A stretch of 45,581 bases of DNA from a virus. Where the stretch lies: positions 1 to 45,581 of IMG/VR virus record IMGVR_UViG_3300050821_007240. The stretch is one strand, 5' to 3'. The notes beneath the pieces were generated by a model that made no database searches, had not been told where the DNA came from, and saw only the letters and a list, made by a program, of their open reading frames with translations. The position numbers were made by a program, and so were the translations under genes. Shown here piece by piece: positions 4,003 to 43,187 of the stretch (position 1 is the stretch's first letter; each line of letters opens with the position of its first letter).

Positions 4003-4253
4003 ACGGGGACGACCTCTGCGGGCACCTTCCGCGCTGCGTCGTGCCGAACTGCTTCGGCGCGAAGTTGTGGGCCGTCGTGCAGTTGTACGGCGGCTCGCGA
4101 ACGGCGGCTCGTATCGTCGGCGTACCCCGCTGGACGCTCTACCGCTGGCGCAAGCTAACGTCGGCGGACAACTTGCAGGTGGGGACGCTGGCGCGGCTAA
4201 CGTCGGCGTTCCCCGAACTCAAAACACTACTTGAACAAGGAGGCGGAACATGA
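3999..4253 (+). CDS. Helix-turn-helix DNA-binding protein, 84 aa
   Basis: GTG overlaps the previous TGA. Residues about 32-53 (GGSRTAARIVGVPRWTLYRWRK) have the shape of a helix-turn-helix: a helix, a GV turn, then a recognition helix with Trp/Tyr/Arg contacts, as in small transcription regulators. Two Cys (13, 18) lie upstream. A regulator of the palindromic operators at 3171-3210 or 6014-6071 is a natural candidate, but this is only context. It is followed by ACAAGGAGGCGG, the ribosome binding site of the next gene. Confidence 0.6.
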   Translation: MNGDDLCGHLPRCVVPNCFGAKLWAVVQLYGGSRTAARIVGVPRWTLYRWRKLTSADNLQVGTLARLTSAFPELKTLLEQGGGT

Positions 4254-4471
4254 AGAATCATTGGCTCTGCTGGTGCGGCGACGGTTGCGCTTCGGGTCAT
4301 CAGACCGAATGTGTAAGGCCCACGGTGTACGCGGTACACGATGTGGAAACGGTGTACGAAATCTTTTCGACGCGCCGCAAGGCGGAGGCGTTCATCAAAA
4401 CGTGCCACTCGCCCGAACGCCTCGGCGTCATGGCCTACAAGCTCGACCGCATCAACGCCAAACCCGCGTGA
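4250..4471 (+). CDS. Hypothetical Cys-rich protein, 73 aa
   Basis: ATG 4250 follows AAGGAGGCGG and overlaps the upstream TGA. The N-terminus has CWCGDGCASGHQTEC, a cluster of four Cys and one His that may bind metal. The rest (VYAVHDVETVYEIFSTRRKAEAFI) resembles a small alpha/beta fold with a repeated V-Y motif. No family is recognised. It directly precedes the primase-helicase. Confidence 0.6.
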   Translation: MKNHWLCWCGDGCASGHQTECVRPTVYAVHDVETVYEIFSTRRKAEAFIKTCHSPERLGVMAYKLDRINAKPA

Positions 4472-5997
4472 CGCCCGAGCAGTTGATTCGCGCGCAGGCG
4501 CCGCACGATGCCCGCCTGTTCGCGCTCGTCCCGTGGACGAAGCGCCCCCGTTCGGAGCACGCGCACCTCGATGCCGTGGACCGCGAATCGTTCCTTGCGT
4601 TGTGGGTGTCGGGGAACTACGGCATTGCGTTAGACGGGCAGTATCTGCTTGTCGATAAGGACCGCGACGATGAGGTCGTGCAAGCCTTTGAGGCACGCCT
4701 GCCCGAAACGTGGATGCAAACGACCTGGAAACGCGGCACGCACCGGCTCTATCGCGTGCCGCGCGGGTTCGTTGGCCGCAATGGTCGGTGGCCCGGCGGC
4801 GAGCTCAAGGTCAACGGCTACCTCGTCGGTCCCGGTTCGTCGGTGCACGCCGACGGACTGGTCGGAACCTATGAGATTATCTCGTCGGCGGACCCCGTAG
4901 AGGCACCGGATTGGCTGCTCGATATGGTGCGTGCCGATGCGCCGCGCGCGACGTTGACGAGTGCCGCTGACATCGACGTGATGCTCGACGGCACGCGCGA
5001 CAACGAGCTTGCATCCATTGGCGGATTCATGCGGCACAAGGGGTACAGCGAAACCTTCATCTGCGCTGCGCTCGCCGGTATCGTAGACTCCGGTGTCGTC
5101 GAACAGACACCGGGGCGCGAGATTCGGTCGGTGGACATCGAACGCATCGCGCACAGCGTTGCACGGTACACGCCGGGGCCCGGCGACGTTCGCATCGGCG
5201 CTGCCGATTGGATATGCGGGAGCAACGTGGCAATCGTCGGGCCGCCCGTTGACTGGTGGGTGCGCGGGTTCTTGCCGCACAACGAACTCATCGGCATCTT
5301 CGGCGGCAAAGGCGTTGGGAAGTCATCGTTCGCGTCATGGATTGCGACGCAAGTCACCAAGGCAGGCGGCTCGTTCCTTTTCGTCGGTGTCGAGGAACCC
5401 TTTCCACGCTTTCTCGGGCGCTCCGTACTGTGCGGCGGGGACCGCTCGCGCATTTTTTCCTATGGGCAAGCGAGTCAACTCATGCTGCCCAAGGCCGTAC
5501 CCGAGCTACGCGAGGCCGTCAGGACGGCGGGCACGAGTTTCGTCTACTTCGATTCGATATACACCCACTTCGAGCGCATCCAAGGTGAAAACATGGCCGA
5601 GCGGGCGCGGCGCTGCCTCGGGCCGCTGGCCGAAATGGCGCAGGATACCGGCTGCACGATTGCAACGGTCTTTCACGAACGGCGCGACGGCGACTACCTC
5701 GGCTCGACGGAGATGATTAACGTCGGGCGGGTGACGCTCCATGCCGAACGCGCGGAGAACCAGCCACTGGTCGTCTCGGTGCATACGACGAACCTCTGGG
5801 AACCAGCATTTGAGTTGACGTTCTACGCCGAGGAGAAAGCACTGCGCGACCCCGACACCGACGAAATCCAATACGAGAGGGTCGATGGGGAACTGGTTCC
5901 GATGACGGTTCGGGTCCCAACGCGCGGGCCTGACCGCAAGAAAGGTATCCGCGCCGGTAACGTAGCCGACTTCGAGGATACAGACGACGAGCCCTAA
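4468..5997 (+). CDS. Prim-pol primase / RecA-type helicase, 509 aa
   Basis: GTG 4468 overlaps the upstream TGA. The frame is open back to 4231, but that part shadows other genes. Residues about 1-170 match bifunctional primase-polymerase domains: a DKDRD metal-binding segment (63-67), KRGTHRLYR (88-96) and GYLVGPGSSVH (117-127). Residues about 250-480 are a RecA/DnaB-like ATPase with Walker A GGKGVGKSS (279-287) and Walker B FVYFD (Asp362). The protein should make primers and unwind DNA at the phage fork, working with the polymerase at 9035. The acidic tail (FEDTDDEP) may bind a partner. It is the first large gene of the replication module. Confidence 0.85.
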   Translation: MTPEQLIRAQAPHDARLFALVPWTKRPRSEHAHLDAVDRESFLALWVSGNYGIALDGQYLLVDKDRDDEVVQAFEARLPETWMQTTWKRGTHRLYRVPRGFVGRNGRWPGGELKVNGYLVGPGSSVHADGLVGTYEIISSADPVEAPDWLLDMVRADAPRATLTSAADIDVMLDGTRDNELASIGGFMRHKGYSETFICAALAGIVDSGVVEQTPGREIRSVDIERIAHSVARYTPGPGDVRIGAADWICGSNVAIVGPPVDWWVRGFLPHNELIGIFGGKGVGKSSFASWIATQVTKAGGSFLFVGVEEPFPRFLGRSVLCGGDRSRIFSYGQASQLMLPKAVPELREAVRTAGTSFVYFDSIYTHFERIQGENMAERARRCLGPLAEMAQDTGCTIATVFHERRDGDYLGSTEMINVGRVTLHAERAENQPLVVSVHTTNLWEPAFELTFYAEEKALRDPDTDEIQYERVDGELVPMTVRVPTRGPDRKKGIRAGNVADFEDTDDEP

Positions 5998-8850: not shown

Positions 8851-9042
8851 GTGAATGACACGCCGCATATTCAAGAACGCTACGACGCGTTGCGCGCCGA
8901 GATTTTGGTCCGGCGTCAGGAAGAACGCCGCATAAGGATTCTGTGCAATGACCCCGACGAGACGAAAACGCTACGCGACGTTGTACGCGATGCGCTACGG
9001 GCGACGACTGCTGCAGCGCAACGAGCGCGCCCGCATGGGTAG
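8851..9042 (+). CDS. Hypothetical helical protein, 63 aa
   Basis: GTG 8851 is preceded by GGGGAAAG. The protein is highly charged and helical (ERYDALRAEILVRRQEERRIR), with one Cys. Its last 8 bases overlap the polymerase start at 9035. No family is recognised. Confidence 0.6.
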   Translation: MNDTPHIQERYDALRAEILVRRQEERRIRILCNDPDETKTLRDVVRDALRATTAAAQRARPHG

Positions 9043-11377
9043 CGACTGCACCCTGTGCCCCCTCCATCGCGAAGCCCTCACCGTTTGCGTTCCCGGTCGC
9101 GGCAACCCTGACGCCAAGATTCTACTCGTGGGACAAAATCCTGGGCCTCGTGAGAATACGCTTGGCGAAGCCTTCATCGGGAAATCCGGCAAGCTGCTCG
9201 ACGAAATGCTTCTCGACGCCGGGTACAACCTCGACGACGTTTTCCGCACCAATGCGGTGAAATGTATCACACCCGTCGAGAAGGGCACGTTCTCCGAACG
9301 CGCGCCGATGACCGAGGAGATTGACGCCTGCCGCGAGCACCTCGTGCGCGAGATTCACGCCATGAAACCCGACGTTATCATTGCGTTGGGCGACGTGGCG
9401 CTGCGTTCGCTGACGCGCCTGTCGGGCATCGGGAACAAGCGCGGCAAGAGCTTCCCGCTGCACAAGAGCTTCGCGTATGACTGCGAGGTTTTCCCAACGT
9501 ACCACAGCGCCTACGTCATGCGCGTACCGATGAGCCGCAACACCGTCGTCGCGGACTTCCGGCGAATCCGCGACCGGGGCATGGAGCAGACTCCGATACA
9601 GTGGGAGTGGGTCAAGCCGCTGCCAAAGCTCTTGTGGCCCGTGTATGCGCAAGACTTCGTTGCCCTTGACATCGAAACGATTGACGGCGACGGCAAGATA
9701 ACACCTAACCCTACACAGGTCGCATTAGCATGGGGCGTCGATACCGTTAAGTGTGTCGTCGCGCTGATGCCGTATGACTTCGGTATTTGGCCCGAGACAA
9801 TGATTCACCACAACGGGCTCGACTTCGACTTACCGAAACTCGGGCGCGCGCCATCGGGCTACGACACCATGTACCTCGCGCACCTCATCGACGAGAACCA
9901 ACCACTAGGGCTCGAACCGTTGTGCGTCAAGTACCTCGGCGTTCGCGGCTGGAAGGAAGACGAGTTCGCACCGCTTGGCTCCGATGAACTTGCCGCTTAC
10001 AACGCGCGCGATGCCGTCAACACGCTACGCCTGTTCTTCAAAGAACGTGAGCTGCTCGGCCCGCGCATCAAGATTTACGAGCAGATTCTCCTGCCTGCCC
10101 GCTTGGCGCTCAACGAGTGCAGCCGCCGAGGGCTGTGGATTGACGGGCAGGCCGTCGAAGCGATGTGCGTCAAGGTCGAGGCCGACATCGAACGCTTCCG
10201 CACCAAGGTCAAGATGATTGCTAGCGAGACGATTCCGTTCCATGAACAGTCAGACTTCTCGAAGTTCAATCCCAACAGCATCGCGCAGGTCGCCGTCATT
10301 CTCCAGAAGATGGGCATAGAGCTGCCCAGGACGCGCAAGACGGGGGCCTTGAAGGTGGATAAGGGCGTGCTCCAAGCGCACCCGCAGAGCGGCTTCTGCG
10401 TGGCGCTGCTGGCCTATCGCGAGGCCACCAAGACCAAGAGCACCTACGTCACGCCCTACGCCCGCGCAGCGGCCTCAGGCAACCACCGGATGCACCCTGA
10501 GTACACCCTCATCCGCACCGTCGTCGGACGCACGTCGGCCCGTCGGGCGCGCAATCCCGTCGAAGGGCTCGACCCCGGCACCAACGTCCAAAACCTCGAC
10601 CGCGACTTGGAGTTCTTTGGCGCCCCGCCGGGGAAGGTGTTCGTCAAGGCCGACTACTCCGCGCTGCATTTTCGGCTCGCGGCCTGGTGCGCGGGAGCGC
10701 GTTCGATTCTCGACCGCTACGCCAAGGACCCCAACTGGGACCCGCACCGCTTCTTCGCCGCGCGATTTTATCGCAGCATCGACCACTTGATTCTGGAACG
10801 CACCGTCACCAAGGAGCAGCGACAGGTGGCGAAGTCCGCAAACTTTTCCCAGCTATACTTGGGCGACGAGCACACGCTGCAAAACTACGCCTATAAAATG
10901 GGCATCGAGTTGGAACTGCCGTTCTGCCGCGCGCTGCACGTTGCCTGGCACGCGACCTTCCCCGAGTTCCTCCCTTGGTATCAGCGCGTGTGGGACCAAG
11001 TAGTCGAGAAGGGCTACGCCGAGACGGCAGTCGGACGACGGCGGAACTTCGGTGACATCAAGCTGCTCAACAGAGCCGGGCGTGCCGCAGCGCATCGCGA
11101 GGCTGTAAACTTCCTCGTATTGGGGCTCGAACCCGACATCGCGCTGCTGGGCTTGAGTGAGTGCCAAAAAGCTGGATTACCCGTCAACGGCTTCTTTCAC
11201 GATTGCGTAAGTCTTGAGGTTGACAGCCGAGCCGTTTTCGAGGATAATAAGGACCTCATCACGCGCTGCATGATAGACCGCCCGCTGGCAATCTTGCGCG
11301 ACGAGTTCAACTGCCAAATAGATGTTCCGCTCGCCGTGGAGTTCACGGTGTACGACAAGGAGACGACAAGTGCCTAA
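9035..11377 (+). CDS. Uracil-DNA glycosylase / family A DNA polymerase fusion, 780 aa
   Basis: The frame is open to an ATG at 8948. ATG 9035 is chosen because the glycosylase family normally starts just before the first CxxC. Residues 1-190 resemble family 4 uracil-DNA glycosylases: cysteines 5, 8, 77 and 99 as [4Fe-4S] ligands, GQNPGPREN (33-41) and TYHSAYVMR with His157. Residues about 205-340 are a 3'-5' exonuclease with DIE (212-214) and Tyr322/Asp326. Residues about 380-780 are a Pol I-type polymerase: motif A Asp540, motif B with Lys600 and Phe604, motif C His722-Asp723. No 5' nuclease is present. SPO1 polymerase is a known case of a fused glycosylase-like domain. Together the parts would synthesise, proofread and check for uracil. 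Confidence 0.85.
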   Translation: MGSDCTLCPLHREALTVCVPGRGNPDAKILLVGQNPGPRENTLGEAFIGKSGKLLDEMLLDAGYNLDDVFRTNAVKCITPVEKGTFSERAPMTEEIDACREHLVREIHAMKPDVIIALGDVALRSLTRLSGIGNKRGKSFPLHKSFAYDCEVFPTYHSAYVMRVPMSRNTVVADFRRIRDRGMEQTPIQWEWVKPLPKLLWPVYAQDFVALDIETIDGDGKITPNPTQVALAWGVDTVKCVVALMPYDFGIWPETMIHHNGLDFDLPKLGRAPSGYDTMYLAHLIDENQPLGLEPLCVKYLGVRGWKEDEFAPLGSDELAAYNARDAVNTLRLFFKERELLGPRIKIYEQILLPARLALNECSRRGLWIDGQAVEAMCVKVEADIERFRTKVKMIASETIPFHEQSDFSKFNPNSIAQVAVILQKMGIELPRTRKTGALKVDKGVLQAHPQSGFCVALLAYREATKTKSTYVTPYARAAASGNHRMHPEYTLIRTVVGRTSARRARNPVEGLDPGTNVQNLDRDLEFFGAPPGKVFVKADYSALHFRLAAWCAGARSILDRYAKDPNWDPHRFFAARFYRSIDHLILERTVTKEQRQVAKSANFSQLYLGDEHTLQNYAYKMGIELELPFCRALHVAWHATFPEFLPWYQRVWDQVVEKGYAETAVGRRRNFGDIKLLNRAGRAAAHREAVNFLVLGLEPDIALLGLSECQKAGLPVNGFFHDCVSLEVDSRAVFEDNKDLITRCMIDRPLAILRDEFNCQIDVPLAVEFTVYDKETTSA

Positions 11378-18592: not shown

Positions 18593-19977
18593 TGTGGCGG
18601 CTGCTGCATCAAGTCCGGTCGCAGGGTGCCGTCGCTGTCGTACACGCTGCCGTCGGGCACGCGGTAGTACGTCGTGCCGTCAGGGCCGCGCGCGAACTGC
18701 GTGCCTTTGGGCAGGTGCGCGGTGTCGATATACGGGTCGCCCTGCGTGTACCCCCCCTGCCCAAACGTCGAAGCGTTGGTGCGAGGGTTCTGCTGCGGCG
18801 TGTCGGTCACGACCGGCGGCGGCTCGGGCAGCGTCATCGGCCCGCCGACGTTGACGGACTTGGCGCCCATCCCCGTCCGCAGCGACGAGCCCGACGCGGT
18901 AATCGTTTTGATTTGCGTGTAGGTGTCGTTGAGCATCCCGGCAGCCTGCTGGTAGGCGGCCTTAGCGGCAGCGCGTTTGGCCGAGAACCCTTGCAGCGTC
19001 GCGGTATCGGCACCGTGATTGAGCGCGTCGTTGTAGGCCGCGTCCGCTGCTGCAAGCTGCTCCTTGGCGCGTTCGGCCATGCCGGTGAGGCGCTTGTAAG
19101 AGGCGACGACCGTTCCCGCCATCGCGGGGTTCCCGCGCAGCGCCAGGACCTGAGCGCGCAGCGTGCCGCCGCCTGCGTTGACGAACTGCGAGAGTTCTTG
19201 GGTCTGCATGATGGCGCGATTGGCGTCGGCATTGGCGCGCGTCGCGTCGGCACCTTCGCGGTTGATTTTGGCTTGCAGCTCGGCACGCACCAGCGGATTG
19301 TTCTCGCGCAGCAGGTTCTCTCTATCTTGTGCGATGGCGGCGCGTTGACGTGCCGTTTCATCGACGTTATCGAGATGAATCCCCATCTGCGTGACCTGCT
19401 GCATCTTCGCCAACTCGGTGCCGGTGTAGTCGGGGCCAGCGGTATACATCGAATCGGGCACGCCTGAGTGCTGGTTGAGAATCGCGGTCTTGGCCGGGCC
19501 TGCGTGCATCTGATTGAGCAGCACGATGTCTTTGTCGGTCAGCGGCGTGAGGAACTGCGACTTGTCAAAGCTGCCGTCGGCCCCGAAGGGGTCGGGCATA
19601 CCGGCTTGCGCGGCCAGGGCCTTCATCCGCATCTGCCATTGCGGGGACTTCACGACGTTGGGGTCGCGCACGCCGACCTGTCCGAACTGATTGTAAAGCT
19701 GGAGCGCCTGCTGCTGATTGGCCGTCGATGCTTGGGACTGCTCGACCTGCGCGCGAGCCGCGTCGCTTTGCGTTTGCGCTTGGGTTTGAGCAAGCTGCGC
19801 GCCGAACAGTTTATTGGCCTGCTGGGTCTGCTGAAAGGCTTGGAAGCCCTTGATGACTTGGGCGAGTGGACCTTGCTGCTCGTTGACGTAGGCGGCCCAA
19901 TCGGGCGCCGGGACGCTGACGTTGGTCGGCATCTGCGGAACGCCGCCGCCCATTCGCATCGGAGCTACACCAGGCAT
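18589..19977 (-). CDS. Internal virion-type coiled-coil protein, 462 aa
   Basis: Low-complexity Gln/Ala helices (QTQQANKLFGAQLAQTQAQTQ and following) run to about residue 95. Long Ala-rich coils fill residues about 200-360 (AERAKEQLAAADAAYNDAL). The C-terminal 90 residues are Pro/Gly/Asp-rich (GPDGTTYYRVPDGSVYDSDG). Composition and position next to the 1001-residue protein fit a T7 gp15/P22 ejection-protein role. No homologue is recognised. Confidence 0.6.
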   Translation of the reverse strand: MPGVAPMRMGGGVPQMPTNVSVPAPDWAAYVNEQQGPLAQVIKGFQAFQQTQQANKLFGAQLAQTQAQTQSDAARAQVEQSQASTANQQQALQLYNQFGQVGVRDPNVVKSPQWQMRMKALAAQAGMPDPFGADGSFDKSQFLTPLTDKDIVLLNQMHAGPAKTAILNQHSGVPDSMYTAGPDYTGTELAKMQQVTQMGIHLDNVDETARQRAAIAQDRENLLRENNPLVRAELQAKINREGADATRANADANRAIMQTQELSQFVNAGGGTLRAQVLALRGNPAMAGTVVASYKRLTGMAERAKEQLAAADAAYNDALNHGADTATLQGFSAKRAAAKAAYQQAAGMLNDTYTQIKTITASGSSLRTGMGAKSVNVGGPMTLPEPPPVVTDTPQQNPRTNASTFGQGGYTQGDPYIDTAHLPKGTQFARGPDGTTYYRVPDGSVYDSDGTLRPDLMQQPPQ

Positions 19978-21347
19978 TAGTTTTTGTCTCCGTCCTCGTC
20001 AGGTTCCAGCACCGGCGTCGTTTCCCAACCCATCGCCGTCATGTCATCGAGGTCGCTCTCGATGATTTTCTGAGCGTCTATTCTATACTGTAAGTTGGGT
20101 ATCGAGAGCCGGTCCTTCAAGTAAGCATACATATCGTCGCAAGCGGCGGTCAAGGAGGACCCCGACGCCACCGCAACACCAACGTGCCCCGACGCATCAT
20201 CGACGAAATACCCGTTGGGGCCTTTGCTCAAGCCCTCGGCAACGAAGAACTTGTCCCACAGCCCGTCGAGTCCGCCGAGTACGGGCGTCGTGCGCGCAAG
20301 TTTGGGGCGCAACGACTCTTTGAGGTCCGAGGCCCCCATCGGATACGGCGGCAGCGTCAAGCGGATGCCCGCGTACACCTTATTGGCGTCGAAGAACTCA
20401 TCAACGGATGTGCCATGCACCAGCGCCGACAGAAACCCGGCGTAGTTCGTGATGCCGCGCTGCGCCGTCGCCTCGCTGTCGTAGCCGAAACGCGGCGTCC
20501 ATTCGAGAAACCACACGCCTTTGCGATTGACGATGGCGTTGATGTCATAGATACCCGGCGGGGCGTTGTTTTTGCGAAACGTCGCCGCGAGCCGCTCGAA
20601 CTGCAACGCATCGGCAACGTGCGGCTCGCCTGCGTAATACCACACGAGATTGAGCATACACCCCGTCGAGGGGCCAACGTCACCGGCCATCATCTTCTTT
20701 TCTTCGATGGTGCCTTCGTAGGGACCGACCCACGCGCGACCGTTCCACCAGCGCGCCGTCGAGATAGCGACACCTTTGATTTTCTCTTGCAGCAGGCAGG
20801 TGTGGTTGTCACCGAACTTCGGCAGCGCGCAGAGTTGCAGCCACGTCAGCATCGCTTCGGTCGATTCGTCAATCCACGTTGAGTCGGCACCAAGGTCGGT
20901 ATTGGGTTTCCAGGCCCACCCACCGTCACCGTGTTTCTGCTTGGGGTCTTTTTTGAGGAACGCGATGGCTTGGGTCAGCGTCGAGAATCGGTACGACGGC
21001 GGCGCCTGGATACCGTGCGCCTCGGCGAACGCCTCGCCATACGGACGGTCGTTCTCCAAGCGGTCGCAGAACGCGCCCGCACCGACGACGAAACAGCCCG
21101 CACCGCGCAGCCGGTCGGCCATCTCGCCGCGTCCGGTAAAATCAAAGAGCGAAATCGTGCCCGGCTGGCGCGCGTACTGTTGCCACTCGAATACCGATTG
21201 CGTCTTGGTCGTAATGCCGTCGCCGACGTGCTGGGAGTTCTTGCCGTTCTCTTTGTCGATGAAGACGAGCACCTCGTGGCCTTCGTCCATCAACCGCTTA
21301 TGCAGCCACAGGTTCCCGCCGCGTACCGAGTACAGCGCGAATCTCAC
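19977..21347 (-). CDS. PurD-like ATP-grasp ligase, 456 aa
   Basis: GTG start overlaps the upstream TGA. The order matches phosphoribosylamine-glycine ligase: SVRGGNLWLHKRL (7-19, N-domain), LLQEKIKGVAIS (185-196), KKMMAGDVGPSTGCM (217-231, the GPNTGGM region) and YDINAIVNRKGVWFLEWTPRFG (267-288, the metal-binding EFNxRFGDPE region). The Asn expected two residues after Glu282 is Thr284, a possible change at a metal ligand. PurD makes GAR in purine synthesis. A phage enzyme among virion genes may instead join an amino acid to another acceptor, such as a modified base or a virion protein. That is inference. Confidence 0.75.
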   Translation of the reverse strand: MRFALYSVRGGNLWLHKRLMDEGHEVLVFIDKENGKNSQHVGDGITTKTQSVFEWQQYARQPGTISLFDFTGRGEMADRLRGAGCFVVGAGAFCDRLENDRPYGEAFAEAHGIQAPPSYRFSTLTQAIAFLKKDPKQKHGDGGWAWKPNTDLGADSTWIDESTEAMLTWLQLCALPKFGDNHTCLLQEKIKGVAISTARWWNGRAWVGPYEGTIEEKKMMAGDVGPSTGCMLNLVWYYAGEPHVADALQFERLAATFRKNNAPPGIYDINAIVNRKGVWFLEWTPRFGYDSEATAQRGITNYAGFLSALVHGTSVDEFFDANKVYAGIRLTLPPYPMGASDLKESLRPKLARTTPVLGGLDGLWDKFFVAEGLSKGPNGYFVDDASGHVGVAVASGSSLTAACDDMYAYLKDRLSIPNLQYRIDAQKIIESDLDDMTAMGWETTPVLEPDEDGDKN

Positions 21348-30819: not shown

Positions 30820-31785
30820 CTAGGCTCCATTTGAACCTACCACGCCTCGGCCATTTGCGGCGCCCCACGCGGAGCGGAACTCGGTTTCGTGATTGAGCGA
30901 CTGCGTGTCTTCTTGGTAGAAGGCGCGCTGCTCATCCCACTTCGTGGTGGCGAACATCGTGTGGGCGTCGGTGCCGGGCATACCCTTGCCCGAGGCCACG
31001 AACCACGGGTACGGCCCGTTAGTCGGCGCGGTGAGATACTCCGAAGCGCACGGCTGCAACGTACCGGCCACGACATTGACGCGGTTCTCGTCGGTTGACG
31101 GGTAGTAGTAGGACGACATCACTTCGGTCGCCGTCTGATGCAAGAAGATGGGATAGATGAGTTGGACCGGCGTGCGGCTGGTCTGCAGCCCCCGGTCGTC
31201 GGGCATCGAGAGCATCAGGTTGAAGGCTTGATTGATGGTTTCGACGGTGAGCGCGACCGGCCCGAGGTAGTTGCTCCACGTTATGCCCGGCGCACCCGCG
31301 CAGGTGTGGACGTTGGAGAACAGCGCGAGGCCGTCGTTGACATCGTAGCCGCCCGAACCCGCTGCGAGGAAGCCGAGATTGAGGATGTTCCAGAAGTTGA
31401 CTTCCTGCGTTTGGTAGGACGAGTACCGCAGCAGTCGCGGCAGCATCGGAATGATTTTGCGAGCGTCTTCGCGCGCCATCTCTTTGGTAACGATGTAGCG
31501 CAGCGCGTATGAAACGTATGGAAAGAACTGCAGCGTGCCTTCCGACGCGGCGTCGATGCTGGCGGTCTGCCCTTCCTGTTTGACGGGGAGGTAGCCGAAG
31601 CCGACGATGGAGAGCAGTTGAAAGAACTGCCGTTCCATGTCGCCTTCCCAGCCCGAGCCCGAACCGTTGAAGACGGCGGGGTAGCGCAGAGGCTTCATCG
31701 GGTCGGTATTTGAGTAAATATCCGTGACGATGTGCGTCTGCGCTTGGAAGAAGGTCCTGGTGTTCGTAAGCGTCGATTGCGCCAT
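30820..31785 (-). CDS. Major capsid protein, HK97-fold type, 321 aa
   Basis: Order and content fit a Mu gpT-like/HK97-fold capsid: an N-terminal arm, residues about 85-135 with the long helix VSYALRYIVTKEMAREDARK, then DGLALFSNVHTCAG, and P-domain strands with NVVAGTLQPCASEYLT and PYPWFVASG. It lies after the decoration and scaffold genes in transcription. No N-terminal protease extension is seen and no prohead protease is recognised nearby. It should form the icosahedral shell. Confidence 0.75.
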   Translation of the reverse strand: MAQSTLTNTRTFFQAQTHIVTDIYSNTDPMKPLRYPAVFNGSGSGWEGDMERQFFQLLSIVGFGYLPVKQEGQTASIDAASEGTLQFFPYVSYALRYIVTKEMAREDARKIIPMLPRLLRYSSYQTQEVNFWNILNLGFLAAGSGGYDVNDGLALFSNVHTCAGAPGITWSNYLGPVALTVETINQAFNLMLSMPDDRGLQTSRTPVQLIYPIFLHQTATEVMSSYYYPSTDENRVNVVAGTLQPCASEYLTAPTNGPYPWFVASGKGMPGTDAHTMFATTKWDEQRAFYQEDTQSLNHETEFRSAWGAANGRGVVGSNGA

Positions 31786-33953: not shown

Positions 33954-34206
33954 TGTCAAGTTCCTTTTTGAGCCAGGGAGGAATGTCGAGGGACACCTTG
34001 TCGAAGGCCCCCGTAATCCCTGCACAGAGGGCCTCTATTGCCCGCTGGTAGCCCAGCCGCTCATCCAGCGGCAGCGCGAAGTTATGCACCAGCTCGCGGC
34101 GCCAGCTCCGAATGAACTCCAGCTCCCCTTCGAGGTAGAGCCGGAACCCGTTGCTGCGAAGGAACTCGTTGAAAAGCTCGCGCTGCTCGCGGTTGAGGTC
34201 GGCCAC
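33943..34206 (-). CDS. Hypothetical protein, 87 aa
   Basis: GTG 34206 overlaps the portal stop (TAG, then GTG sharing a base). The longer open frame is a portal shadow. Helical N-terminus (REQRELFNEFLRSNGFRLYLEGELEFIRSW), then LDERLGYQRAIEALCAGITGAFD. No family is recognised. Confidence 0.6.
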   Translation of the reverse strand: MADLNREQRELFNEFLRSNGFRLYLEGELEFIRSWRRELVHNFALPLDERLGYQRAIEALCAGITGAFDKVSLDIPPWLKKELDIGP

Positions 34207-36143
34207 TACGCCGCTGGCGCTTGCGGCGGCGCGGGAGCCTGTGGGCGCTGCGGCGCTTGCGGTGCGCCGGGATGCGGTTTGCCGAACGCGGCGTGACTGA
34301 TGACCTGCATGAGCATCTGCTGTTTTTGGGCATCCTGTTGGGCCTTCGCCATCGCTTGGGCCTGCTGCATCGCTTCTTGCATCGTACCGATGTACGCCGT
34401 AACTTCGGGAATGTCGTGGGTTTCGAGCACCATGCGCGTCATCTGCCAAATCCGCCCGAGGTTCCCTTGTACCAGCGGGTTGGGCATGAGGAACTGCGCG
34501 AGCATCAGCGAGTCTTGTTTGCGCTGCTCCTTGTCAAACGGCCCACCGCCGCCCGAGACGCCCATCGTCATATCAAGCGAGAGAATCTCTTTGGGAACGG
34601 TAACGGTCTGCGTGCCTTGAGAAGTCGGCATGGCGGCCTGCATTTGGTCGTCGCCGTACTGGATGTAAAGCCCTAACGTATAGTTGCCCAAATCCAGAAG
34701 CCACTCGCGCGCGTCGGTAATGACGCTGTTGCTCTGCATCGCAAGAATCGCTTGCTGAGCCTGCGCGGCCCGTGCCGATTGACGCGCACCCGACGCGACC
34801 GGAGCGGCAGCGGCTTGCGGGCTCCCAACGGCGCGGTCGGCTAACTGATAGAGCGACTGCTCCTCGATAGTGGACTGCTGCGGAATGGTCGGCGCGTCCA
34901 CGAAGCCGAAGTCTTCTTTCTTGGTGACGATAATCTCCGAGTCCATGCCCCAGCGTTTGTCCTCGTCGGCAAACTTGACGGCGTTGGTGCGCCAGCGCAT
35001 CGGAGAGAGCGCGTAGTCGAGCATATCGAGCCGCCCGTTGTGCTGCGCGTTGCCTTCCTCTTGCGCGAACCGCACGAGTTCAGGCACCGAGAACCCGTAG
35101 AAGCGATTGGGACGCGGGATAAGACTGAGTGGAAAGTACGGCCAGCCGCGCCAGTATTGGAACGGCGCGACGCCGAGCAGAATCCGCCCCTGGTCGTAGG
35201 TCCACACGAAGTTGTCTTCAAACTGCCCGTCGCCGTCGAGGTCAAACGTGCGCCACAACCCGCGCCACACTTCAATCGGCCCGCGCGCCAGGCCGAGGTT
35301 GTCGGGCGGCGCCACGCCGATGTCGGCCACCTGCACGCGCCCGGCAATCGTGTAGGTCCGCGCGCCTTGACGGTCACGGCTGAGTTCACCCATGCCCGAT
35401 TGCACATAGGACAGCGCCTTCTCGACGGCATCGGGGTAAAAGATGCCCGCCGACACCATGCGCTGGCAGTCCATCTCACTCATATAAATCTTGCGAACGA
35501 ACCCGTCAGCCGCGGCAATCGACGGCGCGTACACCGGGCAGAGCAGCGCATCGCGCAGTTCGATGGCCTGCCACGATGGGTCGTCGTAATCAACGATGCT
35601 CACCTTGCGGCGCACCGTCTTGCCCGTACCGGGGTCCTTGTCGAGGCGGTACTCGGTGCGCGCGGTGAGTTTCCACATCACCTCCATCACCGACGTACCA
35701 TCGCGGGCCGACAGGTGCATGGCCTGTTTGGCCTCTTTGTGCCAACGTTTCTCGTCGTACTTCCCGTTGATGAACTGCTCGACGACGTGGGCGTACTGCG
35801 CCGCCACCGGGTCGTTGCCGTGCATCGTAAACGGTCGCGGCCCAAGTACCGTCCCGGCGATGCGGCTGGTGAACTCGTTAACCGCCGAATGAACCACCGG
35901 GAGGCAGTAGTTGCTCGCGTTGGGCCACGGATAGTCACGCGGGCGGGTACGCATCTCGTACATCGCGTTCCAGTAATCCAGGGTGTAATCCAACGCTGCA
36001 CGGTTGCCGAGATTGAGGTCGATAAGGATGCTCTGCGTCTCGCCTAAGCTCTGACGCTGCGCCTCATCAAGTTCGGGAATCGGCAGCGAAAGTGGCTGAG
36101 ACGGAAACAGCGTGCCTGTTATCGAACGCTGTGCGCGCGCCAC
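34206..36143 (-). CDS. Portal protein, 645 aa
   Basis: GTG start with AGGACA nearby. Features of large podovirus-type portals: PWPNASNYCLPVVHSAVNEFTSRI (residues about 73-96), a wing and stem region with FYGFSVPELVRFAQEEGNAQHN, the crown part with Ala/Gln-rich stretches, and a long C-terminal Gln/Ala/Pro tail (KAQQDAQKQQMLMQV, PQAPAPPQAPAA). It forms the twelve-fold entry ring for packaging, bound by terminase and adaptor. Confidence 0.8.
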   Translation of the reverse strand: MARAQRSITGTLFPSQPLSLPIPELDEAQRQSLGETQSILIDLNLGNRAALDYTLDYWNAMYEMRTRPRDYPWPNASNYCLPVVHSAVNEFTSRIAGTVLGPRPFTMHGNDPVAAQYAHVVEQFINGKYDEKRWHKEAKQAMHLSARDGTSVMEVMWKLTARTEYRLDKDPGTGKTVRRKVSIVDYDDPSWQAIELRDALLCPVYAPSIAAADGFVRKIYMSEMDCQRMVSAGIFYPDAVEKALSYVQSGMGELSRDRQGARTYTIAGRVQVADIGVAPPDNLGLARGPIEVWRGLWRTFDLDGDGQFEDNFVWTYDQGRILLGVAPFQYWRGWPYFPLSLIPRPNRFYGFSVPELVRFAQEEGNAQHNGRLDMLDYALSPMRWRTNAVKFADEDKRWGMDSEIIVTKKEDFGFVDAPTIPQQSTIEEQSLYQLADRAVGSPQAAAAPVASGARQSARAAQAQQAILAMQSNSVITDAREWLLDLGNYTLGLYIQYGDDQMQAAMPTSQGTQTVTVPKEILSLDMTMGVSGGGGPFDKEQRKQDSLMLAQFLMPNPLVQGNLGRIWQMTRMVLETHDIPEVTAYIGTMQEAMQQAQAMAKAQQDAQKQQMLMQVISHAAFGKPHPGAPQAPQRPQAPAPPQAPAA

Positions 36144-38177: not shown

Positions 38178-39872
38178 TTAGACGGGATAGTCGCGATTAT
38201 CATACGCGGTCCTGCCTCCAGGGGTCAACGAGGGCCTCCCGGTTACGTCCCATTGTGTGCCCGCGCGCGAGCCGGGGCGGTCGTACGCGCCCGCGCCGAA
38301 CGTCTTTTGATAGCGTTGGTACTCGGGGTCAATCGGGTTGTCGTCTTCGCGCTGCCACGACTCCGGTATGCGCGCGAACTCCTCGTGCTGTGCCAACGAA
38401 TCGAGTACGTCCTCGTGCTCTTGCTGCGCCGAGATGCTGAAGCTCTCGATTTGATTGAGCAGAACGTGGTGCTGCGGGCGCAGGATGTACCCGCCGCGCT
38501 CCCAACGTGGCTGCACCGCCGTCGCGATGCGGACGTTCTTGGGCACGCCGCCGGTGCGGTACTCGTAAATATAAATCCGTGGGATGCCGCGCCGGTCCAA
38601 CTCGACGCACAGCAGTTCTTGCCACATCCCGCCGCCGCCGTCTTGTTCGATGGAGAGCGCCCACAGCTTGTAAAACAAAATCAGGTTGATAACGGCGTTG
38701 ACGACCTCGGTGGGCTTGCCTTTGTAGCTGAGTGCTTCGCAGACCCAACGCAAGTCGGCCATATCGGTGCCGCACACGGTGATGCCGTGGCTGTCGGAGG
38801 TCGCCGTCGCGATGCGCCCCGCCGGGTCCCACGCCCCGGTCGTGAGCACGGGCATTTGACCGCGACCCGGCAGCACGACGTAGCCCCCTCCGGTACGCCG
38901 CGCGAGGAAGTCGAACGCCCGAACGCGGCTGCGCTCCATCGCAAACGTGCGGTCCTCGTCGGCAATCGGTTCGTTGTTATATTGGGCCTCGAACTTGCGG
39001 CTGCCCATGCGCTCGCGCTGGTCGCGCAGGAAACTTTCGGTCAAAACCGATGGAAAGAACAGCGTGCCGTCGGGATTGTGGCACTTGTGAATGATTTTGG
39101 TGAAAAACGGACGTTCTTTTTCACGGACGCGCTGCGCGTCGGCGCGAATCAGCCGCCCGTAGGCGTCATCGGTGTGCCAGCGCGTAAATATAAGCACCAA
39201 AACGCCGGTTGGGCTCAAAATCGGCAGCAAATCGAGGATGTAGTCGTACACCTTGTCGCGCATCTGCTTGGTACGGATGTTCGTGTCGGTTACGAAGTCG
39301 TCACCAATGATTAAATCGAAGTGGCCGCCGGTCATCGAGCGGTCCAAACCCGCGCACGCGATGCTAGGGTCAATCAGCGTCTTATCCGTGCGCCGCATGA
39401 CGTAAATCGAGTCGTCGTTCCACACGTCTTCGCGGAACTCGGGCTTCCAGCCGTCGCCAAACCATGCGTGAAAACGTTGGTTGAACTCTAAATCTTGTTT
39501 GACGGCCCGCAGGCGCTTCTTACTGATGTCGTGGCGGAAGCTGCTGATGAGCACGCGGGCATTTGGGTTGCGCCCAAGCGTCAGCGAAGGCAGCCCTTGA
39601 GCAAATAGCGTCGTCTTGTAGGTGTGGCGGGGCAGCCCGACCATGTAGAGCCGCTGCTCGCCCGTCGAAAACGAATAGTCGCCCATCGCGGTGTCGATGA
39701 ACTCGGCCACTTCGAGGTGCGGTTGGGGCTCTACGTCATAGCCATAAATGTTTTTGAACGCGCTGTAAGCGAAACTCGCGTTGCAACGTGCGAGGATAGC
39801 GTCGTCGGGCTCCGCTGGCGCGGGGTCGCGAGCCTCGAAACCCGATAGCTCGTCTAAAAGACCATCATACAT
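38178..39872 (-). CDS. Terminase large subunit, 564 aa
   Basis: ATPase part: a Walker A-like GLPRHTYKTT (79-88), Walker B FDLIIGDD (185-192) and coupling motif FTRWH (229-233). The nuclease part starts near residue 340 and ends with HEDVLDSLA, the acidic RNase H-type signature. The motor pumps DNA into the prohead and cuts it. The ATG is preceded not by a ribosome binding site but by a terminator-like hairpin (39882-39920) whose tail, TTTTCTCTT, touches the start codon. No small subunit is certain. Confidence 0.85.
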   Translation of the reverse strand: MYDGLLDELSGFEARDPAPAEPDDAILARCNASFAYSAFKNIYGYDVEPQPHLEVAEFIDTAMGDYSFSTGEQRLYMVGLPRHTYKTTLFAQGLPSLTLGRNPNARVLISSFRHDISKKRLRAVKQDLEFNQRFHAWFGDGWKPEFREDVWNDDSIYVMRRTDKTLIDPSIACAGLDRSMTGGHFDLIIGDDFVTDTNIRTKQMRDKVYDYILDLLPILSPTGVLVLIFTRWHTDDAYGRLIRADAQRVREKERPFFTKIIHKCHNPDGTLFFPSVLTESFLRDQRERMGSRKFEAQYNNEPIADEDRTFAMERSRVRAFDFLARRTGGGYVVLPGRGQMPVLTTGAWDPAGRIATATSDSHGITVCGTDMADLRWVCEALSYKGKPTEVVNAVINLILFYKLWALSIEQDGGGGMWQELLCVELDRRGIPRIYIYEYRTGGVPKNVRIATAVQPRWERGGYILRPQHHVLLNQIESFSISAQQEHEDVLDSLAQHEEFARIPESWQREDDNPIDPEYQRYQKTFGAGAYDRPGSRAGTQWDVTGRPSLTPGGRTAYDNRDYPV

Positions 39873-40887: not shown

Positions 40888-41058
40888 CTAATGAGGCCGC
40901 AACACGAACCAACCGAGGATGCCGATGCAGACCAGCGGCATCGCCCACCCAAAGTTGTACGGACGGCCCGGCGTAGCCGGTGCGCCGGAACTGAAGTACC
41001 AGCCTCCCGCCCAACTCAAGATGTAAAGAACCCAAAAAACTAAGCCGATTAGTGTCAT
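40888..41058 (-). CDS. Two-span membrane protein of the lysis cassette, 56 aa
   Basis: ATGA overlap with the lysozyme stop; its TAG abuts the next ATG. Two hydrophobic segments (MTLIGLVFWVLYILSWAGG; PLVCIGILGWFVL) flank a short polar loop (SSGAPATPGRPYNFG). Possible holin, antiholin or pinholin. Its coupling to the endolysin is the main clue. Confidence 0.6.
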   Translation of the reverse strand: MTLIGLVFWVLYILSWAGGWYFSSGAPATPGRPYNFGWAMPLVCIGILGWFVLRPH

Positions 41059-41672
41059 CGCGTGATTCCTTTCAAGTCGGTTCCGTTGTAGCAGTCGAGG
41101 TCAACGAATCCTGGGATACCGGCGATGGAGCCGCCGCTGGAATACTGTTGGATGGTCCATGCCTTCCATCCCTGCGGCATAGCCGGATTCCCAGGCGTTC
41201 CTGTGAAGCTCGCCACCCACAGCGTATGCCCCGAAAAGTCGTCGCTGCCACCGAAGGCGTTGTCCCAGGTGTCCTGATTCGTATAGATGATGGGTGTCGC
41301 CGATGCCGCTGCAACCGTCGTATTGAAGGCCGCCAGGGCCGCAATGTTTCCCACCACGCTACCCATCGTACCCGAGCCCTCCTCGACATCGACCATCGGG
41401 CGAAGCTGTCCCTCGTACCCGTCGATAAGGTCGAGGAAGTGGAAGGCTTGCGCTACCGGGTCTTCGGTGAGCAGAAAGAACATATACGGCCCAAACGGAA
41501 TGCCGTTGGCTTTGCAGCCGTCGTGGTTGGCCGTAAAGATTGCGCCGTCGTCGTCAGCAGGATTGCTGCCGTAGCAGGCTCGCGCATACGCAAAGTCGAT
41601 GCCAGCGCCTTTGACTGCCTTCCAATCTATCGAGCCGCCTTGCGCGTAACTGACATCGATGCCGTAAAGCAT
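41055..41672 (-). CDS. GH25 lysozyme (endolysin), 205 aa
   Basis: ATG 41672 follows GGAGGTGG; the longer frame shadows the next gene. The GH25 muramidase fold is shown by GIDVSYAQG (Asp6), FAYARACYG, and DVEE (Asp95, Glu97 as catalytic acid pair), with the usual later WQYS-like segment (AWTIQQYSSGG). It cuts peptidoglycan between MurNAc and GlcNAc. There is no signal peptide or binding domain, so it needs a holin. Full length for the family. Confidence 0.85.
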   Translation of the reverse strand: MLYGIDVSYAQGGSIDWKAVKGAGIDFAYARACYGSNPADDDGAIFTANHDGCKANGIPFGPYMFFLLTEDPVAQAFHFLDLIDGYEGQLRPMVDVEEGSGTMGSVVGNIAALAAFNTTVAAASATPIIYTNQDTWDNAFGGSDDFSGHTLWVASFTGTPGNPAMPQGWKAWTIQQYSSGGSIAGIPGFVDLDCYNGTDLKGITR

Positions 41673-41674
41673 AG

Positions 41675-42373
41675 CTAGTCCACCTCCAAAGTAACGGGTT
41701 CTGGGAATATAACGCATTTGAGTTCCTCGATGGGTGCGATGACGACGGGCAGCGTCCTGTCGCCGTTGGCGCGCGTGTCGTACCCCAACAGTTCGTCTGA
41801 GTAGCGCGCGTACACGACCATCCGCCCCGGCACGAGGTCGGGGTTGGCCTCGAACGTCGCAACGGGTACGGTGAGAATGTGCGCCCATATCCGTGGGAAC
41901 TTCTCATTCTTGGCGGCAATGAGCCCGCCTTCGTACACGCCAGCAGGGCTGTACGGGCGCATGAGAACGTGCCCCTCGATGGGGACCCAATGCAACGCGA
42001 GACTCGTCCGCGGTAGCTCGTCGATGTAAAAGACTCGCGCCATGATGTCAACGTCGTTTTCGTAGTAGGTCGCGAGCACGTCGCACTCGTCGATGTCGAG
42101 GATGCTCTCGGGCATATCGAGCTTCGGCTGGCAGACCGACAGACTTGCACCGCACCCCGGCACGAGAAAGACTTTGGTGCCGACCGGCGTGGCGGTGTCG
42201 TCACCCGTGGCGAGCACGACTGCCGTGTTCTCAACCGTTGCGTAGGTGTCGGGGAGCACGAGGCCCGTCGGCGCCTTGCCGTCATCGAGCTTGACGAACA
42301 GGTGCCCACGCATCGGGCACAGGCCGATGTCAAGCTGCGGATGCGTAAGCATCGAAGAAGTCAAGACATCCAC
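41675..42373 (-). CDS. Tandem GroES-like (Cpn10) protein, 232 aa
   Basis: GTG 42373 gives 232 residues; ATG 42352 (225) is equally possible. Two domains follow the GroES plan. Domain 1, about 20-104: PMRGHLFVKL, TGLVLPD, ENTAVVLATG, VGTKVFLVPG, ILDIDECDVLA. Domain 2, about 131-224: PIEGHVLMRP, EGGLIAA, PGRMVVYA, PVVIAPIEELKCV. The mobile loop of GroES (residues about 17-32) is short in domain 1. T4 gp31 is a known phage co-chaperonin that lets GroEL fold the capsid protein. A two-domain form recalls plastid Cpn20. Likely role: capsid folding. Confidence 0.65.
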   Translation of the reverse strand: MDVLTSSMLTHPQLDIGLCPMRGHLFVKLDDGKAPTGLVLPDTYATVENTAVVLATGDDTATPVGTKVFLVPGCGASLSVCQPKLDMPESILDIDECDVLATYYENDVDIMARVFYIDELPRTSLALHWVPIEGHVLMRPYSPAGVYEGGLIAAKNEKFPRIWAHILTVPVATFEANPDLVPGRMVVYARYSDELLGYDTRANGDRTLPVVIAPIEELKCVIFPEPVTLEVD

Positions 42374-42561
42374 ACTTTAAAACCGGGCGTTTCACACAGG
42401 TCGCAATGCACGGGCCCGTTGTCGAGCGGCGAATGGCAGCAGTAAATGACACCTTCAGCGTTACGGTGGACAACGAGCCCCGACACTTTGATACCAGCCT
42501 CCGATTCGCCCAACTCAACTTCGAGAAGCTGGTCGAAAACGGGGCGCGTAAGCTCGTCCAT
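42361..42561 (-). CDS. Hypothetical zinc-binding protein, 66 aa
   Basis: One CxxC (CDLC, near residue 53) and an upstream CCHS pair suggest a zinc site. The N-terminus is an acidic helix (ELTRPVFDQLLEVELGESEA). Overlaps neighbours at both ends. No family is recognised. Confidence 0.6.
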   Translation of the reverse strand: MDELTRPVFDQLLEVELGESEAGIKVSGLVVHRNAEGVIYCCHSPLDNGPVHCDLCETPGFKVWMS

Positions 42562-43187
42562 TACGTCGCCTCGGGGAATGCCGACGACATTGCTTCAGAA
42601 ACGGTCGGCGGGACTTCTTTGGATTCGCGCAGCGCCTGCGTGAGCCGTTCCAATCCGAAGTTCACCAGCGCGGCGAGCACGGTCGTCGGGCTGACGTTGG
42701 AGCGTTTGGCGATGCCGTAGACGGCAGCGGCAGTGCGTCCCGTCAGCCGCGCACCGAAGCTAAAGAGTGTGTGCGGGTGGGCCCGGCACTGGGCATGGCG
42801 GTTGGCATCGGTGCGCGTGTACCCGCGAAACCCCGGCGACATCTTCTTGGAGTTGAACCCGACCGGCAGGCTCGCGCGGCGCAGCCACAAGTCCAGCCGC
42901 GCCAGCTCCCGCCAGCGAATCGCCCCCGAACGGGCATCGCTGTCGAGCACGCCTTCGAGGTACGCCAGCGCGCGGGGGGAGAGCAGGTGCTTGACGGAGT
43001 GCGCCACGATGTGCAGCGCCTGGATGTACGTCGGGTCGCTGGGCGGGACCTCGATGGCTTCGTTGACGGCAGCCTCGACGAACGCGGCGGCCTGCTGGCG
43101 GCGCTCGACCGACTCGGCGCGGCGCTGCTCACCGAGCTTGGCGAAGTGGCTCTCGCTGCGGTAGGGTTCGAGTTCGACGACGGTCAC
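42561..43187 (-). CDS. Hypothetical helical protein, 208 aa
   Basis: GTG overlaps the upstream TGA. Charged helical first half (HFAKLGEQRRAESVERRQQAA), Arg/Trp-rich middle (IRWRELARLDLWLRRA), and a late part (RTAAAVYGIAKRSNVSPTTVLAALVNFGLERL) with a ribbon-helix-helix-like look. It might bind DNA; no certain family. Second large gene of the late operon. Confidence 0.55.
   Translation of the reverse strand: MTVVELEPYRSESHFAKLGEQRRAESVERRQQAAAFVEAAVNEAIEVPPSDPTYIQALHIVAHSVKHLLSPRALAYLEGVLDSDARSGAIRWRELARLDLWLRRASLPVGFNSKKMSPGFRGYTRTDANRHAQCRAHPHTLFSFGARLTGRTAAAVYGIAKRSNVSPTTVLAALVNFGLERLTQALRESKEVPPTVSEAMSSAFPEAT

Follow-up and report, generated by a model that had tools for sequence, protein, structure and literature searches.

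The window, i.e. the whole stretch of DNA analyzed here, corresponds to an IMG/VR virus record that is 45,581 bases long. On its minus strand, an open reading frame of 232 codons, referred to below as the tandem gene, runs from a GTG at 42373 to a stop codon ending at 41675, exactly where the initial annotation had placed a phage protein with a two-domain pattern; the plus strand across 41675-42373 is broken by stops. The candidate start codons are this GTG and an ATG at 42352, and no clear ribosome-binding site was found at either of them. Beyond the lysozyme gene that follows (Table 1), there is a small hydrophobic protein, recognized by eye, and then the terminase, the portal protein and the likely capsid protein. 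The tandem gene sits in a block that is presumed to be late, with packaging and lysis genes, and its immediate neighbor is a lysis gene, not a head gene.

Table 1 Features of the tandem gene and its surroundings in the window (L003 is the related viral contig described in the text).
Feature	Position	Strand	Basis or remark
Likely major capsid protein, 321 aa, 35.5 kDa, possible client	30820..31785	-	phrog_133 E 6.1e-6, phrog_4523, weak Mu gpT
Portal protein, SU10/P22-like	34206..36143	-	family match
Terminase large subunit	38178..39872	-	family match
GH25 lysozyme (endolysin), next gene	41055..41672	-	starts 2 bases past the tandem-gene stop
GGAGGT, ribosome-binding-site-like, for the lysozyme gene	41682..41687	-	within the 3'-terminal codons of the tandem gene
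Tandem GroES-like gene, 232 aa, ~25.4 kDa	41675..42373	-	open reading frame, profile matches, L003 homolog
N-terminal GroES-like barrel, residues 15-105	42059..42331	-	profiles, hhalign; 70/91 identical to L003 (77%)
N mobile-loop equivalent, residues 30-48, G-L-V-L-P triad region	42230..42286	-	alignment with 59 Cpn10 rows
Variable linker, residues 106-123	42005..42058	-	3/17 identical to L003
C-terminal GroES-like barrel, residues 124-222	41708..42004	-	profiles, hhalign, model; 86/99 identical to L003 (87%)
C mobile-loop equivalent, residues 141-163, G-G-L-I-A-A	41885..41953	-	59-row alignment; 20/23 identical to L003
Conserved upstream gene	42561..43187	-	68% over 161 aa in L003; no function assigned

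A portal-protein scan of viral contigs identified L003, a contig with another sample number, in which the terminase, portal and capsid genes are 87-95% identical to those of the window, and which carries a full-length homolog of the tandem gene (L003:2461-3144; 76% identity to the window protein). Over 228 aligned codons, the comparison of the two genes gave dN of 0.20 and dS of 0.74 (dN/dS ~0.27), with 43, 35 and 91 differences at codon positions 1, 2 and 3, respectively; the lower dN, together with the excess at third positions, indicates that the gene codes for a protein under selection. Thus, the tandem gene is intact and is subject to purifying selection in two divergent phages. Conservation is concentrated in two blocks (residues 15-105 and 124-222) separated by a variable linker, as expected of two folded domains with a loose connection between them.

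A second contig, L002, shares 11,085 bases with the window at full identity, so that the number of independent homologs is one. The scans of IMG/VR for the tandem gene or its neighbors returned L003 and L002 only, with patterns that were near-exact, such that distant tandem relatives could be missed; the terminase scan also gave two distant loci, L007 and L008, which are outside this count, and two pattern matches, L184 and L186, were judged to be due to chance. No relative was detected in the genome contigs searched, nor was there a match to the window protein among 50,697 phage records (tblastn, E ≤ 1). The L003 version produced five weak rows against the same records (E ≤ 10), of which the one in Evtepia is a SacI-type restriction enzyme. 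A phmmer comparison of the window protein with PDB sequences yielded chance matches only (best, HST2, E 0.84).

The GH25 lysozyme is absent from the L003 locus, where the tandem gene keeps its place and is followed by a YkuD-like gene (L003:3147-3572; L,D-transpeptidase fold, Pfam E 2.1e-5), GGAGGT again preceding the junction. The presumed lysis enzyme has been exchanged between these related phages. As for other genes of the two contigs, one plus-strand frame of the window (8948-11377) combines a uracil-DNA-glycosylase superfamily domain (aa 49-198) with a family A DNA polymerase (aa 431-800), and another (4231-5997, plus strand) contains a Prim-Pol domain followed by an AAA_25 domain and is probably a primase-helicase. 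A 456-aa frame on the minus strand (19977-21347), in the block with the structural genes, has a weak ATP-grasp match (GARS_A, E 0.015), and a 491-aa frame in L003 (8287-9762), phosphoesterase- or acid phosphatase-like by eye, is matched by no listed frame of the window in tblastn.

The sequence motifs from which the initial annotation had derived two GroES-like domains are all present, namely PMRGHLFVKL (residues 20-29), TGLVLPD (36-42) and VGTKVFL (64-70) in the N half, and PIEGHVLMRP (131-140), EGGLIAA (148-154) and PGRMVVY (182-188) in the C half. In the Cpn10 profile search that had been proposed along with them, Pfam matched only the N half: its Cpn10 family (PF00166; cut-off 21.1 bits) recognizes the L003 protein above its cut-off (23.4 bits, E 6.2e-5) and the window protein just below it (19.7 bits, E 8.7e-4). 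PHROG 3188 ('co-chaperonin GroES') matches both (E 0.0015 for the window protein and 7.8e-5 for the L003 protein), and the best of the NCBIfam GroES models gave E 5.7e-4 on the L003 protein, all of them scoring far below their whole-protein cut-offs. With hhalign, the N half aligned to 10 GroES rows at E 3.6e-4 (probability 37%, residues 18-102) and to a 135-row Cpn10 profile, composed of these 10 rows and 125 others, at E 4.5e-8 (probability 95%, residues 18-101; 0 of 300 column shuffles as good), covering the Cpn10 domain from end to end. Given the agreement of three profile libraries and hhalign, the N half is clearly a Cpn10 domain.

For the C half alone, no match was found in Pfam (window and L003 proteins), PHROGs or NCBIfam. 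The NCBIfam GroES model NF011106 picks out two stretches of the window protein, the best of which, residues 130-193, lies within the C half (E 0.012, far below the cut-off). Our own Cpn10 profile sets the C half in a constant register, with the alignment starting at profile position 4 or 5 and P131 falling on position 5. The 10-row profile gave single-test E values of 0.0082 (window) and 0.00077 (L003), and shuffled sequences scored as well in 2/1000 and 0/1000 cases, respectively; for the 135-row profile, the corresponding counts were 6/2000 and 0/2000. The hhalign comparison of the C half (E 0.0012, probability 20%) reached a score of 23.4, a value attained by none of 300 shuffles (mean 11.2, sd 2.3, maximum 19.3). 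The Cpn10 landmarks P131, G149-G150 and G183 are in register, and the C half is 12-27% identical to 59 Cpn10 rows. When the listed frames of the window were used as a control, the tandem gene came out on top of the Cpn10 profile search with 8.3 bits, an apparent shadow frame (1765-2178) scoring 6.0; a frame with the GroES-resembling stretch ILHDRIVV (P0002, 12827-13075) had no Pfam Cpn10 match and 1.4 bits in the profile search, and was rejected. Direct alignment of the N half with the C half was at chance (257/500 and 160/500 shuffles reached the score in the two phages) and so gives no sign of a recent duplication.

The fold prediction, another check that the initial annotation had called for, points in the same direction, with a qualification. 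An AlphaFold2 model of the whole protein, built from the two-homolog alignment without Cpn10 rows, had a pLDDT of 27.4 and was set aside. The model of the C half was built from residues 124-232 as the query, the L003 counterpart and the 59 Cpn10 rows; its mean pLDDT is 69.7 and its pTM 0.65. Most of the strands form blocks with values of 82-92, and the presumed mobile loop is below 50. In a Foldseek search with this model, the first 31 rows were all co-chaperonin chains, T4 gp31 among them, with a best E of 5.6e-3 and no row reaching E 0.001. VIA-align scored 16 co-chaperonin entries at Z 7.1-9.9; the best row of another kind, a reductase from a superfamily that carries a GroES-like domain of its own, had 5.6. 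Neither program listed another fold above Cpn10, which does not thereby exclude other folds. Because Cpn10 rows were part of the input, these matches are partly circular, and constitute support, not proof. Taken together, profiles, hhalign and this model moderately support a Cpn10 fold for the C half, more weakly than for the N half but in register. The claim that a single phage protein has two GroES-like domains thus stands firmly for the N half and with moderate strength for the C half.

The hydrophobic triad of the mobile loop binds GroEL. Loops and roofs were compared with 72 sequences listed by hand from 160 GroES loci, of which 59 were left after the removal of rows more than 85% alike. 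In both phages, the N-half loop reads G-L-V-L-P, with the triad LVL, and falls within the range of the 59 rows. The C-half loop reads G-L-I-A-A in the window and G-I-I-A-A in L003 (triads LIA and IIA); the third place of the triad is L, I or M in 59/59 comparators and Ala here. Thus, of the GroEL contact loops whose presence the initial annotation had made a point to check, the aligned sequences indicate a complete one in the N half and one without the third hydrophobic residue in the C half. The roof hairpin lies between the positions that correspond to G44 and G62 in E. coli GroES, a stretch 16-18 residues long in 57 of the 59 rows (12 and 7 in the other two); its length here is 7 residues for the N half and 12 for the C half. 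By this measure, the roof loops of both halves are shortened in the manner of gp31.

On balance, the tandem protein is probably a phage co-chaperonin that consists of two Cpn10 barrels in head-to-tail fusion and acts on host GroEL. Consistent with this reading, the tandem gene keeps its place even though the next gene differs (GH25 or YkuD); the Ala in the C loop, the lysis rather than head gene next door and the dissimilarity of the halves in direct comparison argue against it. GroEL binding, late timing, the composition of the ring and the clients are what we infer from these data. The protein would be expressed with the packaging and lysis genes and would act as a lid for the GroEL of the host; a Cpn60 was not found in the 45,581-base record, which is not known to be complete. 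Docking via the N loop is plausible from its sequence: the N-domain loops (GLVLP) would make strong contacts with GroEL and the C-domain loops (G-L/I-I-A-A) weaker ones, and the short roof loops of both barrels would produce an open dome, as in T4 gp31. Late in infection, such a lid might help phage structural proteins to fold. The initial annotation had proposed, more specifically, that the lid serves to admit the capsid protein. In PMC6318259, the larger gp31 cage is invoked for T4 gp23, of about 56 kDa; the candidate capsid protein, at 35.5 kDa, is well below this size, so that size lends no support to the proposal.

An even number of domains has to be accommodated on a seven-fold ring. Three tandem chains would contribute six lid domains, with the seventh place either empty or taken by one host GroES; alternatively, four tandem chains could be present, with one domain idle. 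Linked GroES domains are reported to function in vitro as rings of six or eight (PMC5780408). The Chlamydomonas ClpP complex in PDB 7ekq contains the Cpn20 chain twice, chaperonin 23 once and chaperonin 11 once, i.e. three tandem chains and one single chain, which add up to seven domains; three phage chains with one GroES would arrive at the same count as this CPN11/20/23 cap. Altered symmetry is possible but is not the sole solution, since a mixed seven-domain ring would leave the symmetry unbroken. The full version of this scheme, in which three tandem chains and one host GroES make a chimeric, roof-poor lid of seven domains with alternating strong and weak contacts that reprograms GroEL for late phage proteins, is conceivable but doubtful.

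Three other explanations were considered. The double barrel could have the Cpn10 fold and yet be put to another use that does not involve GroEL, for instance, in timing lysis together with the endolysin or as a component of the virion. Compatible with such a role are the translational coupling to the lysozyme gene, the location in the lysis-packaging block, the altered C loop and the low similarity to true GroES, but the triad and the length of the N loop are those of a GroEL binder, and the adjoining lysis enzyme is swapped between the two phages while the tandem gene stays, which argues against a specific endolysin partner; we consider this explanation rather unlikely. It is also possible that the Cpn10 fold is confined to the N half, with an unrelated beta domain in the C half, and that the tandem arrangement is an over-reading. 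The failure of every family library to match the C half alone and the chance-level alignment of the halves would be expected in this case; the shuffle tests, hhalign, the NCBIfam stretch at 130-193, the in-register landmarks P131, G149-G150 and G183 and the model matches all speak for a second Cpn10 domain, making this explanation unlikely.

Finally, the protein could cap and block the host ClpP ring instead of GroEL, shielding phage proteins from degradation. The idea draws on the solved tandem chains, which sit in the Chlamydomonas ClpP complex 7ekq, and on the CPN11/20/23 heterotetramer, which, according to PMC8889267, caps one end of the Chlamydomonas ClpP core and, judging by the title of a preprint cited there, inhibits proteolysis. 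The window itself contains no pointer to ClpP, and the plastid cap belongs to the GroEL-type co-chaperonins, so a role as a ClpP cap seems highly improbable.

Among 160 GroES loci, of which 80 were kept from at least 524 genome matches and 80 from 203 viral matches, a sample biased to GroES near three query sequences, none (0/160) has tandem Cpn10 domains in one frame. One short viral contig (L113, ~1041-2890) has three separate Cpn10 frames (130.8, 60.6 and 59.8 bits). In the literature searched, mostly open-access journal articles at the level of abstracts, we found no phage described as having a tandem GroES.

The phage protein shares with bacterial GroES (PF00166) the barrel landmarks and, in its N half, the GLVLP loop, and differs from it in being tandem and roof-poor, with an altered triad in a C half of 12-27% identity; compared to GroES, its N loop is shorter by ~2 residues, and its C loop is of about equal length. 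T4 gp31 and the related phage co-chaperonins of PHROG 3188 are likewise phage-encoded proteins of the Cpn10 fold but have one domain per chain. PMC6318259 describes gp31 as missing the roof loops, a similarity to the protein studied here, and as having a wider opening; the mobile loop of gp31 is also longer (22 vs 16 residues), an extension that neither loop of the tandem protein shows. Phage CBB also encodes more than one Cpn10 domain, although in two separate frames, CBB_131 and CBB_268, without fusion (PMC5259590).

The comparison with tandem Cpn20, made already in the initial annotation, is apt with respect to layout. Plastid and apicoplast Cpn20 are, as far as searched, the tandem forms in print (PMC5780408, PMC3542282, PMC5904260), and Cpn20 shows that tandem subunits working with GroEL occur in nature (PMC5780408, PMC3542282). 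In these proteins (CPN20/CPN21/CPN23), a single chain of 20-25 kDa holds two head-to-tail Cpn10 domains, the layout predicted for the phage protein, and domain 1 of the Cpn20 chain 7ekq_R also lacks about ten roof residues. Unlike the phage protein, they are eukaryotic and plastid-targeted, and 7ekq_R has the full hydrophobic triad in both loops (GGVLL in both domains) and is far nearer to GroES (64.7 and 91.5 bits). The phage protein is thus Cpn20-like in layout only, with no implication of descent from a common ancestor; it would represent a further, perhaps independent, case of the Cpn20 layout and a small, tractable system for the old problem of matching lid domains in even number to a seven-fold chaperonin ring.
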